NCBI GenBank assembly: GCA_011503125.2
Contig: WWBZ02000033.1
Span: 4,030,001 to 4,094,000 of the forward strand
DNA: 64,000 bases
Source: Botryosphaeria dothidea
Taxonomy: Eukaryota; Ascomycota; Dothideomycetes; Botryosphaeriales; Botryosphaeriaceae
Direction: 5' to 3'
The notes beneath the pieces were generated by a model. That model was given only the letters and a program-made list of their open reading frames with translations, searched no databases and was not told the DNA's origin. This document shows, piece after piece, positions 3,350-37,745 of this stretch. Within the stretch, counting starts at the first letter, position 1. Every line of letters begins with the position of its first letter. The position numbers and the translations under genes were made by a program.

Positions 3350-4154
3350 ATGGCTCCTGACGCCTGCTCGCCCACACGTACCACTTCCACCAACACTGTC
3401 TTCCCGAAAATACTCGCCACCAGACGTAACCTTGACTCACAAACATACTCTGCCTTTCTTGAAGAAGCTGAGATCCTCGACTCTTTCGCCAACATGGAGG
3501 CACCGATCCGATATTCCTTCAGCGCGCCTTCGAAGCGCTTCTACTGCGTCATCGCCCTTGGCCAGATCACACTCCTCTCCACCGTCGTGGCGCTCGTCCT
3601 CCTTATCGCCAAGTACGAAACACTACAAAACGACAGCGAGCGTGCCGGTTACGTCATATGGCTGGTCTTCTCCGCATGCGCAACCTCTGTCTTCGCAATG
3701 ACGACATTCATCTTCCGGCACCAGCGACGCCGCATGCGCGACATGCAAAACAAGCTCCGGACGATGCACTCGAACGCCGAAGCCCAAGGCTCGCAGAAGC
3801 GCCTCGATACAGACTCATCAGCGCCGCCGCAAGTACGCACGGAGACGGACCACCGACAGAGCATCCTGGCGCAGCACCACCAAGAAGCCAGCGCCGATCC
3901 AACTCGCAGAAGAAGCAGCATCATCGCCAGCGGCCGCAGCCGCCAGCAAAGCTCCGCCGCAGGGGAGGGCTGCGAGCTCTCCCTCTTCCAGACGCACCTC
4001 AGCAGCGGCAGCGCCGAAAGGGCGTCGTCCTCGCTCCCAAGCCCGCCGCCCGCCGCCGTACACCATCGCCAGCGCGACTCCGCCCCCAGCCGCCTCTTCC
4101 AAGACGACCCCGTCATGATGGACCTCTTCCACAGCCTCTACAGCAGCAACTCCA

Positions 4155-4189
<35 letters not shown>

Positions 4190-5053
4190 AACAACCGCAC
4201 ACCCACCACACCCACCACACCCACCCACCGCCGCCGCCCCGCCATCGACGCCCGCCCGCTCCGTCTCTCCCTCCTCTCCTCCCCCTCCGCCACAGCCAAC
4301 CGCAGCTCCACCGCCCTCCCCGACCGCGTCAACACCGGCCACGACTCCTCCCCGCCCGCCACACCCACCCGCCCCACCTCGCCCGGCGGCAACGGAGCCG
4401 CCGCCGTCCTCCCCTCAAGCTTCCCGCTCCCGCCGACGCACGCGCGCTTCAGCGCCGTCCGGACTCCCACCGCCGCAGCCGGGCACGCTGCGGCGCCGCC
4501 TGCCAGTCTGCGGTGGCGGTCGTTGTCGAGGCGGGAGAGGCGCTGGGTGGGCGAGCAGCAGCAGCAGGAGCCGGAAGAGCGCGCCGTGTGGGGACGAATG
4601 GCTGCGTTGTCGCCCTGCGGACCACCGTCGTCATCGCCAATGCCGAGGGGGGGCGATCTCACGGATGGCGCGATGGTCGAGACGAGGGATGGTGACGGTG
4701 TCGCGCTCGAGCAGCTGCCGTCGGGGGAGCGCAGGGATTCGCACGTCGATGTCGATGGGCGCGGGGAGGAGGAGAGCGAGAGGAGCAAGGGGTCATCTGG
4801 CGACGGCGGCGCGGTGTCGAGCCGGCGCGAAGCAGTGGATCTGGCTGCCTCGCGGATGCCGTCTTTGCGGGCGAGGAACGGGTCGGAGACGAAGGGGTAT
4901 CGCTGGGTGGGCGGCGGAGAGGAGGGGGGAGTGGTGGCGCCGTCGAGGCGGTCGAGTAGGGGGTTGGTGTCGCTTGCGTCGACCATAGGGGAGGGGTATG
5001 CGCGGTTGGAAGAGGAAGGATGTGTGCGAGGAGGCGAGGGTAGACGGTCGTGA
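3350..5053 (+). CDS. Two-TM membrane protein with long disordered tail, 567 aa
   Basis: Single exon, family not recognised. Two hydrophobic segments, residues about 64-87 and 100-122, are followed by a basic RHQRRRR stop-transfer stretch. About 440 residues of Ser/Pro/Arg-rich, probably disordered cytoplasmic tail follow, containing an acidic Asp run near residues 270-280. A second in-frame ATG at 3494 (residue 49) has a better context (gccaacATGg) and lies just before the first membrane segment, so the true protein may be 48 residues shorter. The tail is GC-rich and open in several frames, which creates long shadow ORFs on both strands. Function unknown. Confidence 0.6.
4157..4189. repeat. 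GAC trinucleotide microsatellite coding poly-Asp
   Basis: About eleven uninterrupted GAC triplets in frame within the tail of the two-TM protein, flanked by AAC (Asn) codons. Such tracts vary in length by slippage, so the protein is probably length-polymorphic. Confidence 0.85.
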
Positions 5054-30620: not shown

Positions 30621-31971
30621 ATGGCGGAAATACTCTCCGTGACAGGTATCACCCTGGGCGCAGCCTCACTATCAGTTCAAATTTTTGAAGGCGCGAAGAA
30701 AGGTTAGCCATCAAGTTTGAATTGTCCGAAAACGAGCCTCGCTCATCTGACTGATGGTTGAAGGTTACAGGTATTTCGAACAGGCGGCCAACATGCCTGC
30801 GGATTGCAAGTCACTCCAGCTTGAACTTGAGATTCAACATACCCGGTTGCTTGATTGGGGAGACCTTGCAGGCTTGTCCTCCGAGAGCGACTTCGCCACA
30901 TTCGACCGGACTCTGCAGATGAACCGTGGCGTCATCATGGCGCTTCTAAGCGAGCTCAAGACATTGCTCAAAAGAATGCGACGAACTTCGCTCAAGTATG
31001 GAGAACCGAGCCGTGACTCTCTCAGGACCGTCGAGGATGGAGCTCACGGTCGGAAGGAAGTTGTTGTTAACATCGACCTGTCGGAATATCGATCTGTCTT
31101 CAACTCTTCAAGCATATCGTCGGAGAGGAAGAAGGGTCTTATGGGCTTCACCCATATTTTCAAGCTCGGAAAAAATATGAAGTCGGTTGCCAAAGACCCG
31201 AAGCAGCTGAGATGGGCAATTAGCGACAGAGAGAAGTTTGGGAAGGACCTGAACAAGCTCGGGAAACTCATCGACTACTTGCATGAAACTCTCGGGGATC
31301 ACAAGAGAGACGCCTTGCTCCAGGCTACGCACGAGATCAAAATTGCCATGGTCCAGATGTCAGAGACCACGGGACAGATCAAGCAATTGTTGGAAGCTGG
31401 CAAACCTACTTCTCTCCATAATTCAGATGACTCGCAGAGCTCAATCTCGGACGATACCACAGTCAGGGAACTTCCAGACGATGAAACTCTGGAGACTCCT
31501 TCAAGAACACGAGACTCAATTTTTCGAAACCTGGCTGAGTTCAAGATCAGGGTCATGGAAGTCGACCTGTTTAGTACTTCAAGCATTCATGGACCGCTGA
31601 GCAAGGACATCGAAGATATTGCTTTCGCAGACTCCGAGGAGTTAGATGCTGAACTTGAGGACCGTTCTATCGGGACTTTCGCCCAGAAGCCAGTGTGGGT
31701 GGAATGGAAGATATGCGAACCGAGTGCGACTGTAGCCGTTGATGAGCTCCGCGGGCACGTTCGAAGGCTGACCGCATTGCTCAATGATCGCCACCTTCCA
31801 CTGGAGTTTTGTGTGCCTCGCTGCCTCGGTTATGTTGAAAAGGAAGACCAGAGAAAGTTTGGACTCATTTTCCGGTACCCTGAGAGTGGGTTCCAGGGCG
31901 TTAGGCGACCGCAAACTCTACTTGACGCATTTGAGAACAAAAAGCCAACGCTTGAGGAGCGGATTAAGTTG
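30621..31971 (+). pseudogene. HeLo-domain pseudokinase gene, 5' part (interrupted by copia element)
   Basis: Exon 1 30621-30702, a 61-nt intron, then exon 2 from 30764 up to the insertion. The N-terminus MAEILSVTGITLGAASLSVQIFEG...YRYFEQAANMPADCKSLQLELEIQHTRLLDWG matches the HeLo (Het-s/LopB) alpha-helical domain, the membrane-targeting cell-death module. After an acidic linker comes the start of a kinase-like lobe (VWVEWKICEP, LDAFENKKPTLEERIKL). Reading through into the element gives a stop at about 32063. Skipping from 31971 to 37191 keeps the frame and gives a 614-residue product with no other lesion. Architecture HeLo plus kinase-like domain parallels animal MLKL (4HB plus pseudokinase), whose 4HB bundle is a known remote relative of HeLo-type domains. 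Confidence 0.82.
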
Positions 31972-32233
31972 TGTTGCAGTTCCCTCGGGAACTTGCTGAA
32001 TGCGCAGCATATCCTTGCGTGCCTAGGGAGAGAAAACGAAGATGTAGAAGACTCTGATATCTGAAGGTAGTAACTATGGTGGCTTAAATACATGACTGTT
32101 GGGTACAAATTGGGTAGAGTTAAGGTAGTGATTGGGCAGATATTGGGTAGTGTTTTTAAGCACGGAGCAGGTTGGGTAGTAGGTAGATGCCTGAATTGCC
32201 ACCGTATGCCCAAGTGATGCCTAAACCGTTACA
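31972..32233 (-). repeat. Complete 3' LTR of copia element (262 bp)
   Basis: On the minus strand it starts TGTAACGG and ends CTGCAACA. It contains a TATA-like TATTTAAG (32083-32090) about 35 bases before the AGAGTC at 32055, which I take as the transcription start (start of R). Unlike the internal region it keeps many CpA/TpG dinucleotides. Confidence 0.85.
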
Positions 32234-35200
32234 CACCCCCTTCATAATAGCTTGTTGAATAGCTATTATAATAAAAAGAAATGCTAGATAGGATAAATAA
32301 CGGTAAATTAAGTGTACTAAGTCCTAGAACGCCGAATAAGGAAGGTTTATTTTGCAATTTAAGGCCTATTCCTAGCCTATAACGGGCTTAATATCCGTTA
32401 GGTTAAGTTGTTTTACGAATTGCCTAAATCGCTGGGGCGGTAGTTGCTTTGTAAGGCCGTCCGTAATCATTTCGGCTAATGGAGACCAGGTAAGGGAAAT
32501 CCGGTTCTTGCGGACCTCCTGGCGTAGCCAATAGTAATAAATATCGACGTGTCGTAGCTTGGTATTAAGCTAAGGTATAGGTTCTTCGAGTAGTCGAATC
32601 GTTTGGCGGTTATCGCACTGAACATTGATGGAATAACCTGGGTTAAAGTCGAGTTCCTGGAAAAGACGTTCCTACTAAATTATTTCTTTAGCCGTGGTTA
32701 ATAGGGCTAGAAGTTTAGCTTTAGTGCTTAACGTAGTAACCGTCCGCTGCTTATTTGCTACCCAGTCGATAGGGCTACCGAATAGTAAAAAGATTAAGCC
32801 TTAGTAGCTTTTCCGGGTCGTAGGGTTATTCCCGAATGAGGCGTCACTGCAGGCAAGGAAAACCTGCTTTAGGGAATTTTCCTAGAGTCCTAAGAAGGAG
32901 ATTGCAAGGGTCTTTGTACCTAAAAGGTACTCGATTACCCTGTTGGCGTAGGCAAGGTGAAGAGGAGAGGGATTTTTAAGAAATTCGGATAGCCTGGATG
33001 AGGCCTAAGCAATATCCGGCCTAGAGGTGACTGCGGCGAAATTGATCGATCCGATACGCTGTTGATAAGCGTATATTTCTTGCTCTATGGCCTGAGTAGT
33101 TGCTGGCAGGAGGTCCTCCTGGGGTAGCGGGGTAGAATAAGACTTCTGTTGTAGGTTGAATTTTACTCTAAGTTTATTAATATAGGAATCTTGGCAGAGA
33201 TAAAGCTCTCGTTTAGCTCTATCTCTCGTAATCCTAATATTTAGGAACCAAGCAAGCTCTCCGAGCATCCGTATTTAATATACGGATACTAGCTTGCTTA
33301 TAAACTAATTAGTAGTTTCCTTATCTTCGTAGCGGTAAAGGAGGTAGATATTATCTACGTAGAAGAATAGGATGAGTCCTTGGCCTTTAAAAAGGTAGTT
33401 TACTCCTGGGATAGCCTGTAGTCTAAGGGACTTAAGCGTAGTTGAGAAGTAGTTGTACTACAGGGCTGGTGACTGGCGGAGTCCGTACAAGGCCCGTAAT
33501 AGTTTAAGAACGTATAGGCTTCTTAGGCCTAGGAATTAAGCTTTAGGTAGGTCGTATCTATCTGGGATTTGGCAGAAAATTTCCTCGTCTATAGGACTGT
33601 TAATAAAGGCATTAACGGTATTAAGTTATAGGGTTTCTAGGTCGAATACTGCCGTAATAGCTATTAGGCTTCTAAAAGACTTGCCGGCTAGGGTAGCCGT
33701 AAAAGTATCCCGTTCTATAAACTAAAGATTACCCCGTACGTAGAGTCTAGCCTTGAATTTAAGTAGGTATCCTTCGGTGTCGAATTTATAGGTAAATACC
33801 TAGATTAAAGGGATAATCTATTTGTTTTAGGCTATAGCTACGCTTCGTGGCTAAATCTCCTAGGTATTCTTGCTCGTTAGAATATTAATCTCTAGGATAA
33901 TAGCCTATAAAAAGGCGTCCTTATACGGATGGTTAAGAAGTTCCCGAAAGTTTTATAGTGGAGGTGGCAATTGATCTCGGTAAATTTTAGCCTCTAATAA
34001 CGGCTGTTTATTAGTTATACTAGCTAAGAATATAGCGTAGTATCCTAAGAGGTCTTAGACTGCCTATATAGCGGCTACATATACCTATTTCCTAGTTAAC
34101 CTTTTTACCCCCTTAGGTAATATAGCATCTAAGCTAATATTGCCTGAAATTTAGTCTCCTTAGGGTGCTCTATTGCTTAGGTTAGCGCCTAGCGGAGAAG
34201 GGACGTCGTATTAAGTAGGTAGGAGTCTATCTAGACGTCTTGGTGGATCTAGGGGATCTAATAGCTTAGGGGAGCCCAGCCGAGTAGCTGGCTCTTATTA
34301 CGGAGCTAGAGTCTCTTCTAGAGTTATTAACGCTAGTAGTAGAGTAGGCCCTATAGCATCCTTCTCTTATAGAGTAATTATAGAGAATTCGAGCTCTAAA
34401 GCTTCTAATTCTAGTAGGTCTTCTAGTTATAGGAGACGTAGTAGAATTAAGGTAGCCAAAAGTTCTTCTTGTTCTTCCCCTAAGATTTATAATAAATCTA
34501 GGTCTTCTAGCGTATAGAACTCGTTCTCGTTAAAGGTGACATCTCTCGTTCTAATAACCTTGCGTAGGCTTAGTATCTAAATGCGGTAGATATTCGTAGA
34601 ATCGTATCTAACGAGATATCTAATATGGGCTCGTTCGGCAAGTTTATGTGTGCGGGGAATTAGATACCGTAGGAGATACGCTTTACAGCCGTATACCCGT
34701 AGGTGAGAAGCCTTAGGCTTGTTACCTGTAATAACTTCAAAAGGAGTTTTCTAGTCTAAACGTTCTTAAGGGGTACGATTAAGGATATAGCCCGCGGCTT
34801 TAATAACTTCTAGCTAGAGAGATTAGGGTAGCTTAGAGCCGATTCTTATTGCTCTAGCCTTAACTTAAAGAATTCCTCCGAATCGTTCTAAATAACCGTT
34901 TTATGCTGGCGTGTACGGGGCTGAAATTTCGAGCGTAATTCCTCTAGATCTTAGCTCTTCCTAAAATTAAGTACTAAGAGTTTTTTCTCCGTTAGTCCTA
35001 AAGAAGACTACGGTACCCTTATATCGCTTAGGTATTAGATTTAGGGTAAATTTAATAATGCTAGGTGCATCTAATTTATTCGGGTGCGTAAAAGTAAACT
35101 AAAAGCTAGTACTATGGCAAGCGAGATGGGTTACCCAGCGATCCTAATTATAGGCCTGCCCAGCTTCTATTAAATTATATATAATTCTCTAGAAAGGTTT

Positions 35201-37035
35201 AGTGTCTAGTTCCTCCTAATTAGAGCTTTTCGAGACTATTCTATAAGCCTTTAATAGGGCATAGGTCTCGTATTCTTAGGTAACCGGAGCTGGGTCCGAT
35301 TAAGGGATAAGTTTAGCTCTATCGAGAGCCTTAGGGATTTAGTTAATTACCTTAGGTCTAGTATAGGTAAGAATCTAGTACTATTAAGCCGGAGAGGCTC
35401 GTTTAATAGCTAGTTGAGATCGAGTGCTAGTATACGCTTAAGGTGTCTCCGTAGTATTATCTTAAAGCAAGAATTAGCCCTTATTCGGCGTAATAAGGCA
35501 AAGGTCTTAGTTATCTCGTACTAGGCGCATTCGCCGAGTATCCTAGTGCACCCCCTTAGCTAATAGTAGCTTAAGGGACACGAGATTAGTAAGAAAGGTC
35601 GGAATATAGGCCGTGTTTAGAAGGGTTATAATACCCGTCCTAGTAGGGGTTTAAACGCGTAATTTGTAGGTACTAAAGAACTCTATCTAAAGAGTCTAGT
35701 TACCTATAAGGAGCTTATCCTAAGAACCTATATTTCGCGTTTTAGTAAAGTAATTAAGGTTGTTGTAAATATAGATATTAGTACTAGAATCGAGTATCTA
35801 GGAGCTTCGTAGGCTATAGTTAATCGCTAGAGTGCCTACTAAATAGGCTTAATAGGTTGCTATAAATACTCCTACGTCTTAATTCTTAGCTAAATTCTTA
35901 GGTTAATTCTCCTCCTTTACTTAGGTTTAAGGTCGTTAACGTTGTTAATAAGCTTCCCATTTAGCAAGCGCCTATTAAACCTATTTCTTATTTTTCGGGG
36001 TTTATAGGAATTTATCCACCCTTTCTTAAGCATCCTTTTTAGGCTTCTAGCCAGAAGGCCTAATCTTTAGGTTGAAATACCTACAGTCTACAAAGTATTC
36101 CTTCCTCCCGCATAGGCATTAAGGTAGTAGTTTTCGCCAGTTTCCTGCCTAATCTTTTCCGCTAAGTGTAGCAGTAAAGGCTACGTAGCTTCCCTTAATT
36201 AGCTGAGAATCAACGAGCTTATTTAGGCGTACGTGTTGCCGAAATTTCTCCGTAATTGTATAGAAATCTAGTTCTATATTGTCGTTAAGCATAGATAGCT
36301 CCTAAAAGTTGGCGAAATGAGAGAAAATAGGCTTAATAGCCAAGAGAAAGTCTCGTACGGGCTTAGATCCTTGAACCTCCGCGAGATTCTGAGCCTTAGC
36401 TCTAGAATAGAGCCGTTCCCATTATTGAATCCAAGACTCGATTTCCTGGGTTTTCGGAGTAACCCGAAGGTTCTAATATTGCTATTTAAGCTCTAGGGTT
36501 CTAGCAGCGTCCGTTGGTGCTAGACGTTGCCTAAGTGCCTAAAGAAGGTCCCACGGGTACGAAGGCTTGTCCGTAATATACGTAAGAAGGTTAACTAAGG
36601 TTGACTCCTGAATGTAGGTAGTCAGGTCTATGATTGCTTTCCGATAGGTATTATAGTTAGAAAGATCGTTACGGTACTTAGCGTTATAGGCGGTAAAGAC
36701 GTCCTTATCCGTAGTAAGGTTGCCGTTATCGTTAACTTAAAAGGTAGGTGCGGTTGGCTTAACCGGTTGTACTAGTTTAGGTTGAGTATCTGGGTTGATG
36801 AGGTCCCAGATCTCTAGGGACTCGGCGCGGGACTTGACTAGGTATAGCCAATTATCCCAGTCTAAAGGCTTGGCCAAAATAGCCCTGGTTGTTGAGGAAC
36901 TTATCGTAGAAGGTCGAGATGATGTTATTGTTGAGGCTAGGAATAAGGTTCTAGCCGTACTAAGAGGGTCTAATAGATAAAGGTAAAAGAGGCTACACTA
37001 GGTGTAGAATAAGTGCACGCAAAAGAGTGCGTGAT

Positions 37036-37048
37036 CCGGGCTCATAAC
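37036..37048 (-). other. Copia primer-binding site (half-tRNA iMet type)
   Basis: Minus strand GTTATGAGCCCGG directly follows the LTR end. Its complement contains GGGCUCAUAAC, the anticodon arm of initiator tRNA-Met. Copia and Ty5-like elements are known to prime from such tRNA halves. Confidence 0.7.
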
Positions 37049-37185
37049 TGTTGCAGTTCCCTCGGGAACTTGCTGAATGCGCAGCATATCCTTGCGTGCC
37101 TAGGGAGAGAAAACGAAGATGTAGAAGACTCTAGGCACGCAAGGATATGCTGCGCATTCAGCAAGTTCCCGAGGGAACTGCAACA
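37049..37185 (-). repeat. Aberrant 5' LTR: R-U5 plus inverted U5 foldback (137 bp)
   Basis: Positions 37049-37132 are identical to 31972-32055 (84 of 84). The U3 part is absent. In its place 37133-37185 is a perfect inverted copy of 37049-37101, giving a hairpin with 53-bp arms and a 31-base loop and TG...CA termini at both sides. The duplication begins exactly where R should begin. Confidence 0.9.
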
Positions 37186-37190
37186 AGTTG

Positions 37191-37745
37191 TCTCAAAAGC
37201 TCGCCACGTCTCTGCTCTACCTTCATGCAGGCAGCTGGCTGCACAAAGAGCTATTCAGCGGCAATATTCTTTTCTTTCCCTCCACGGACGGGTTTGGCGT
37301 TTCGAGGCCTGATGAGAGTGATATCACAGTTGGGCCTTCGAACAATCCACAATGGGAGCTATATTGTCATCCTGATTATTTGACTGAGCCGAAGCCACAG
37401 TACCGGAAAAGCTACGATATCTATAGTCTCGGCATCATTCTTTTGGAGATCGCCCACTGGAAGCCAGCTAGCCGGATATTCGATATACCCGACCCAGCCA
37501 ACGCCCCGTTACCCGAACTCAGCTCTATTCGAGGGAACCTCTTGGATGGTTCAGACTGCAATCTCGGGGCCTTAAAGCAAGAGATGGGTGGGCGGTTTTA
37601 TGAGGCAACGAGGACATGCATCGAAGGTCTTTCAGCATTCAAATTGGACTCGGACATTGACCAGGCAAAGCCGATATACGGCGTGCTGATCCAGAAGGCA
37701 TTTTCAAAGTTGGTCGTTGATGTGTTGAATGAGATCGCGGTTTGA
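37191..37745 (+). pseudogene. HeLo-domain pseudokinase gene, 3' part
   Basis: Continues the frame left at 31971. SQKLATSLLYLHAGSWLHKE(450)LFSGN(455)ILFF is the catalytic-loop region with HRD replaced by HKE. GFGVSRPDESD stands where DFG is expected. YCHPDYLTEPKPQYRKSYDIYSLGIILLEIAHW is the APE-to-helix-F region. Loss of the catalytic Asp and of DFG indicates a pseudokinase. Without the 5' part this fragment lacks a start codon and HeLo domain. Confidence 0.82.

Follow-up and report, generated by a model that had tools for sequence, protein, structure and literature searches.

In the account of Ty1 and Ty3 reverse transcription given in section 2.2 of PMC5371799, the 3′ end of the minus-strand DNA comes to carry R and U5, and in plus-strand transfer this end normally pairs with plus strong-stop DNA to yield a complete LTR. 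The primer used by copia, according to the same source, is a half-tRNA (PMC5371799). For HIV-1, the Discussion of PMC4668388 reports that template switches occur on 2 nt and that strong-stop cDNAs anneal to each other, and in the self-priming and inter-strand products described there strong-stop DNA is attached in inverted orientation at the RNA 5′ end; they are described as abortive and were seen in vitro. HIV-1 proviruses with asymmetric LTRs have also been described, in which the inequality of the LTRs is blamed on an error of reverse transcription and the DNA was integrated nonetheless (PMC9278108).

Here we describe a copia-type retrotransposon on the minus strand of a 64,000-nt stretch of the Botryosphaeria dothidea genome (positions 31972-37185; the whole stretch that was analysed is called the window below) that can be compared with each of these systems. 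Like Drosophila copia and the Ty1-copia elements, it has a reverse transcriptase of the RVT_2 type, with an apparent integrase-side domain upstream of the reverse transcriptase in a relative (L061), and its primer binding site (PBS) matches the anticodon arm of tRNA-Met. Unlike them, its 5′ LTR has an inverted copy of U5 where U3 should be. Its inverted U5, joined at the putative RNA 5′ end, would correspond to the inverted strong-stop DNA in the HIV-1 products of PMC4668388, but here the product is full length and integrated, and plain self-snap-back would set the loop the wrong way round. It shares unequal LTRs with the asymmetric HIV-1 proviruses, but the deletions presented in PMC9278108 begin in the 3′ LTR and are described there with no inverted U5 in the 5′ LTR. 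Finally, the minus-strand DNA ending in R and U5, as described for Ty1 and Ty3, is the very intermediate that would be needed here, although the complete LTR that normally follows from it is missing. Among the titles and abstract openings listed in searches of open-licence PMC papers, we found no description of an integrated element in which an inverted U5 replaces U3.

Structure of the insertion and its 5′ LTR

The element interrupts a host gene (Table 1). When the insertion is removed, the flanks form an open frame, and in alignment with a 662-aa homologue from Cryomyces minteri (P0002) the left part of the gene ends at residue 451 and the right part begins at residue 452. This continuity, together with the single AGTTG duplication, indicates one clean insertion and thus places the real terminus of the element at the outer limit of the inverted U5. 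A second U5 terminus at the outer end, with AGTTG duplicated at both ends, had been proposed in an earlier note on this DNA, and the letters bear out both points. A second inserted element was considered and ruled out, since one duplication is common to both ends. The disrupted gene codes for a HeLo domain (prion inhibition and propagation) as well as the kinase-like DUF7580 part, and its homologues are uninterrupted.

Table 1. Features of the retrotransposon and of the host gene that it interrupts, in window coordinates
Feature	Position	Strand	Evidence
Host gene, left part (HeLo domain)	30754..31971	+	ORF; PF14479 on P0001, E 2e-21; P0002 alignment to residue 451
Target site duplication AGTTG, left copy	31967..31971		
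Intact 3′ LTR, 262 bp	31972..32233	-	13 LTRs compared, 97.7-99.2% identical over 260-262 bp
TATA box TATTTAAG (element sense)	32083..32090	-	35 nt before putative +1; spacing 35 in 49/49 U3-bearing places
Likely polypurine tract GAAGGGGGTG, adjoins U3	32234..32243	-	Read by eye
Copia-type reverse transcriptase (RVT_2), 9 stops	33143..33838	-	PF07727 at C29:4063143-4063838, E 2.3e-19 (family search)
PBS, 13 nt complementary to tRNA-Met anticodon arm, no spacer to LTR	37036..37048	-	Compared with L068 (tRNA called in genome)
R-U5 of 5′ LTR	37049..37132	-	Equals 31972-32055, 84/84
27-nt loop between arms	37104..37130		
2-bp overlap at junction and putative +1 (CT on + strand, AG in element sense)	37131..37132		
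Inverted U5 copy, 53 nt, in place of U3; outer end is the exact U5 terminus	37133..37185	+	
Target site duplication AGTTG, right copy	37186..37190		
Host gene, right part (DUF7580, kinase-like)	37191..37745	+	PF24476, E 5.8e-7, above its cut-off; P0002 alignment from residue 452

The short ORFs of the window gave no Pfam match, and the reverse transcriptase surfaced through the family search; Rfam likewise gave no match within the window. In the relative L061, an ORF at 3796-4773 with an SH3_retrovirus match (E 8.1e-22) lies upstream of the reverse transcriptase (L061 5143-5835). The rve_3 match of this ORF is below threshold (18.5 vs. a cut-off of 26.5 bits), and with that sub-threshold integrase match the gene order of the relative, an apparent integrase-side ORF upstream of the reverse transcriptase, would be that of copia. 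The run GAAGGGGGTG next to U3 is what we take to be the polypurine tract. The window copy has the TG...CA LTR ends and the 5-bp duplication of Ty1/copia elements, with AGTTG on both sides; of the two complete LTRs expected of such an element it has one, the 5′ LTR being without U3, and it is a defective member of the group. Because U3 is missing from the 5′ end, the copy should lack a promoter of its own.

The 5′ LTR amounts to 137 bp, in which 84 nt of R-U5 are followed directly by the 53-nt inverted U5. The letters of 37049-37185 confirm what had been claimed of them, that U3 is absent and that 53 bases are an exact inverted copy, 37133-37185 being the exact reverse complement of 37049-37101. 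When the 2-bp overlap at the junction is counted, the arms are 55 nt each. Folded as single-stranded DNA, 37040-37195 reaches -77.2 kcal/mol, compared with a mean of -20.03 (sd 2.89) for 200 shuffles of the same stretch, none of which folds as well (0/200). In the genome searched (51.7 Mb, 78 contigs), the arm-gap-arm pattern (12-nt arms, a gap of 10-40, no mismatch) occurs at one place, and the 84-nt junction stretch has an end-to-end match at one place, with 40 of 46 candidates scored.

U3 in other copies of the family

The earlier note had taken the 137-bp form to be aberrant, a view that other copies with the same LTR would have contradicted. Such copies did not appear. Among the loci examined, the end of R was found at 50 distinct places, several of which are copies of one locus, and 49 of these 50 continue into U3; the place in the window is the one that does not. 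Fifteen places reach the PBS, and all 14 besides that of the window run into U3, though these 14 are not all independent, as L045 and L046 share flanks. Judged from these copies, the 137-bp form is not the normal LTR of the family, and in the window an element of an ordinary copia-type family was inserted in a single aberrant form. In the two LTR searches behind these counts, 40 of 59 candidates were scored in one and 40 of 63 in the other. Eleven solo LTRs, read by eye, have the same TG...CA ends with 5-bp duplications.

Two further kinds of LTR variation were observed. In two of the 14 places that reach the PBS, L050 and L051 (C29:122870 and C29:72148), which are RIP-mutated, U3 is broken further out, where it is split by a short, tRNA-derived-looking, SINE-like sequence; part of this insert presumably resembles a B box. 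A related group of LTRs, L032-L037, has only positions 28-262 in common with the LTR described here and differs from it at the U5 end, as though families had swapped such ends.

Edges of the junction and origin of the inverted U5

TATTTAAG starts 35 nt from the inner junction, which falls on the A of AGAGTC, and in every U3-bearing place (49/49) TATTTAA stands 35 nt ahead of the corresponding base. Two diverged copies outside the 50-place filter (L072 and L074) have the TATA box at the same distance, with a different sequence in between (read by eye). This constant spacing suggests that the inner junction is the position of the RNA start, and the earlier placement of the junction at a putative transcription start agrees with it. 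The outer edge corresponds to the border between LTR and PBS, as 37185 mirrors 37049, the base adjoining the PBS. Thus, with the TATA spacing on one side and a PBS adjoining U5 on the other, the inner edge lies where the RNA would end and the outer edge where tRNA-primed DNA would begin.

The position of the PBS beside the LTR fits copia-type half-tRNA priming, the exact tRNA position of which is presumed here, and tRNA-Met is the predicted primer. Candidate tRNA loci were found at no place in the genome with the longer search pattern and at five with the shorter one, and one of these five was called tRNA-Met by ARAGORN. L065, L066, and L069 combine the anticodon arm of tRNA-Met with a 3′ half resembling that of a tRNA and were not called tRNA-Met by ARAGORN; their 5′ half may contain an intron or be missing.

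An error of reverse transcription that led to an integrated element with two U5 ends is the most likely origin of this structure. As to how it came about, we lean toward mutual priming between a stalled strong-stop DNA and the 3′ end of a minus strand, the product being integrated by its two U5 ends. In such a course, minus-strand DNA would copy the RNA 5′ end by way of the PBS, U5, and R and end at +1, as in the Ty1/Ty3 scheme, while a second, tRNA-primed minus strong-stop DNA would stall after 53-55 nt (or its template would be a shorter transcript). The 3′-terminal AG of the strong-stop DNA would then pair with the 3′-terminal CT of the first strand, and each would prime synthesis on the other. 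Extension of the strong-stop DNA would produce the plus strand (R-U5-PBS-body), and extension of the minus strand back to the tRNA junction would leave an exact, blunt U5 end, after which this cDNA, bearing a U5 at each end, would be inserted by integrase in a single concerted step. The fuller claim, that the locus is the fossil of a full-length cDNA in which mutual priming at the RNA start bypassed plus-strand transfer and copia-type integration proceeded in concert by way of two U5 ends, seems to us evenly poised.

Rebuilt strand by strand, model T, in which the minus strand and a second, stalled strong-stop DNA prime each other, reproduces the 137 nt exactly. The same 137 nt are obtained if a PBS-joined minus strand ending at +1 folded back in cis, copied 53 nt of its own U5, stopped at the U5/PBS border, and was integrated (model C), so the sequence alone does not separate the two. 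Folding back in cis, which was the mechanism of the earlier note, needs a single molecule, and strong-stop self-priming is known for HIV-1 from the products described in PMC4668388; we nevertheless regard it as possible but doubtful. From that proposal the error of reverse transcription and the two U5 ends stand, and the stop exactly at the end of U5 is left unexplained, as nothing would cause synthesis to halt there: beyond U5 the template continues through the PBS and into the element's body, and the product would tend to run into the body and become a hairpin-capped end. The proposed 4-base self-primer is weaker than described. The pairing of CTCT with AGGG comprises two Watson-Crick pairs, then T.G, and then one pair. 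Of 73 fold-back positions tested this one ranks 4th, and a perfect 4-base CTCT/AGAG site at 37106-37109, 4 nt away, which ranks above it, was left unused. We infer, and prefer, mutual priming over folding back in cis because a template that ends at the tRNA makes the exact outer end automatic, and because only two terminal Watson-Crick pairs form at the site where the strand would have folded back, with a perfect four-pair site four bases off. Mutual priming has difficulties of its own. A stalled strong-stop DNA and a minus strand that had read through the PBS would have to meet in one particle, RNase H may remove the template needed, and a 2-nt overlap is common by chance and therefore argues only weakly for it; identical arms, moreover, would not prove the participation of two molecules. 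The mechanism is one that we infer from a single, unreplicated locus.

The remaining explanations received less weight. The letters ACA stand last both in the copied stretch of U5 and at the outer edge of the LTR, and on this 3-nt overlap a replication fork could have returned if, after an ordinary insertion, it had switched template, copied the inverted U5, and come back at the outer edge of the LTR with deletion of U3. This would presumably require coincidences involving the putative RNA start, the end of U5, and the border between LTR and duplication, and we consider it improbable. Two U5 ends within one target duplication would likewise be expected if a palindromic cDNA dimer, joined head to head so that both of its outer ends were U5, was inserted and later lost its center, but the deletion must then have ended by chance at the putative RNA start, and the second body leaves no trace; such a history is very improbable. 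Hairpins can produce errors of assembly or library construction, and an artefact at the hairpin had been named in advance as a way in which the structure might dissolve. However, the inverted arm stops exactly at the LTR terminus, after which come the target duplication and the remainder of the host gene, still in frame, and an inverted chimera, which we give very little credence, would have had to drop U3 and rejoin at that base. An assembly artefact therefore appears unlikely. Least tenable is the simplest meaning of snap-back, in which strong-stop DNA folded on itself and the new end entered by plus-strand transfer (model S). It predicts an 84-nt arm on the outside and a loop of the wrong orientation, and its sequence departs from the observed letters from base 56 on; unless the loop was inverted later, the observed structure contradicts it, and we find it scarcely credible.

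Inverted strong-stop products are otherwise described as abortive by-products. If one of them was integrated, cDNA of this kind can go to completion, and U3 would be dispensable at both ends for concerted insertion by a copia-type integrase. If mutual priming is the correct reading, an intermediate regarded as a dead end gave rise to an inherited insertion. In addition, the junction would mark the putative RNA start of the family and its primer junction within one genome sequence. An inverted U5 beside a PBS, with a target duplication flanking the element, provides a signature by which further cases can be searched for.

RIP-like changes and the sister copy

The internal region of the element is RIP-like in composition, with a TpA/ApT ratio of 1.82 and a CpA index of 0.49. 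The corresponding values for the 3′ LTR are 1.29 and 1.12, and the LTR and flanks show less RIP signal or none. Compared with L061, the bins of the window copy between 33000 and 36000 have 35-41 T/A-type differences per 500 bp, and 37000-37132 has one T/A-type difference in 133. Against the same reference, L059 and the window copy have 131 common changes at CpA sites, compared with 100.9 expected if the changes were independent, and 40 common changes at other sites, compared with 2.3 expected; by these counts, the window copy and L059 are sister copies. RIP of a parent before transposition, which may be considered in this connection, is only partly supported. Overall, 32234-37048 is RIP-like, the LTR and the foldback end have almost escaped such change, and many of the changes are common to the sister copy at C6:558582.
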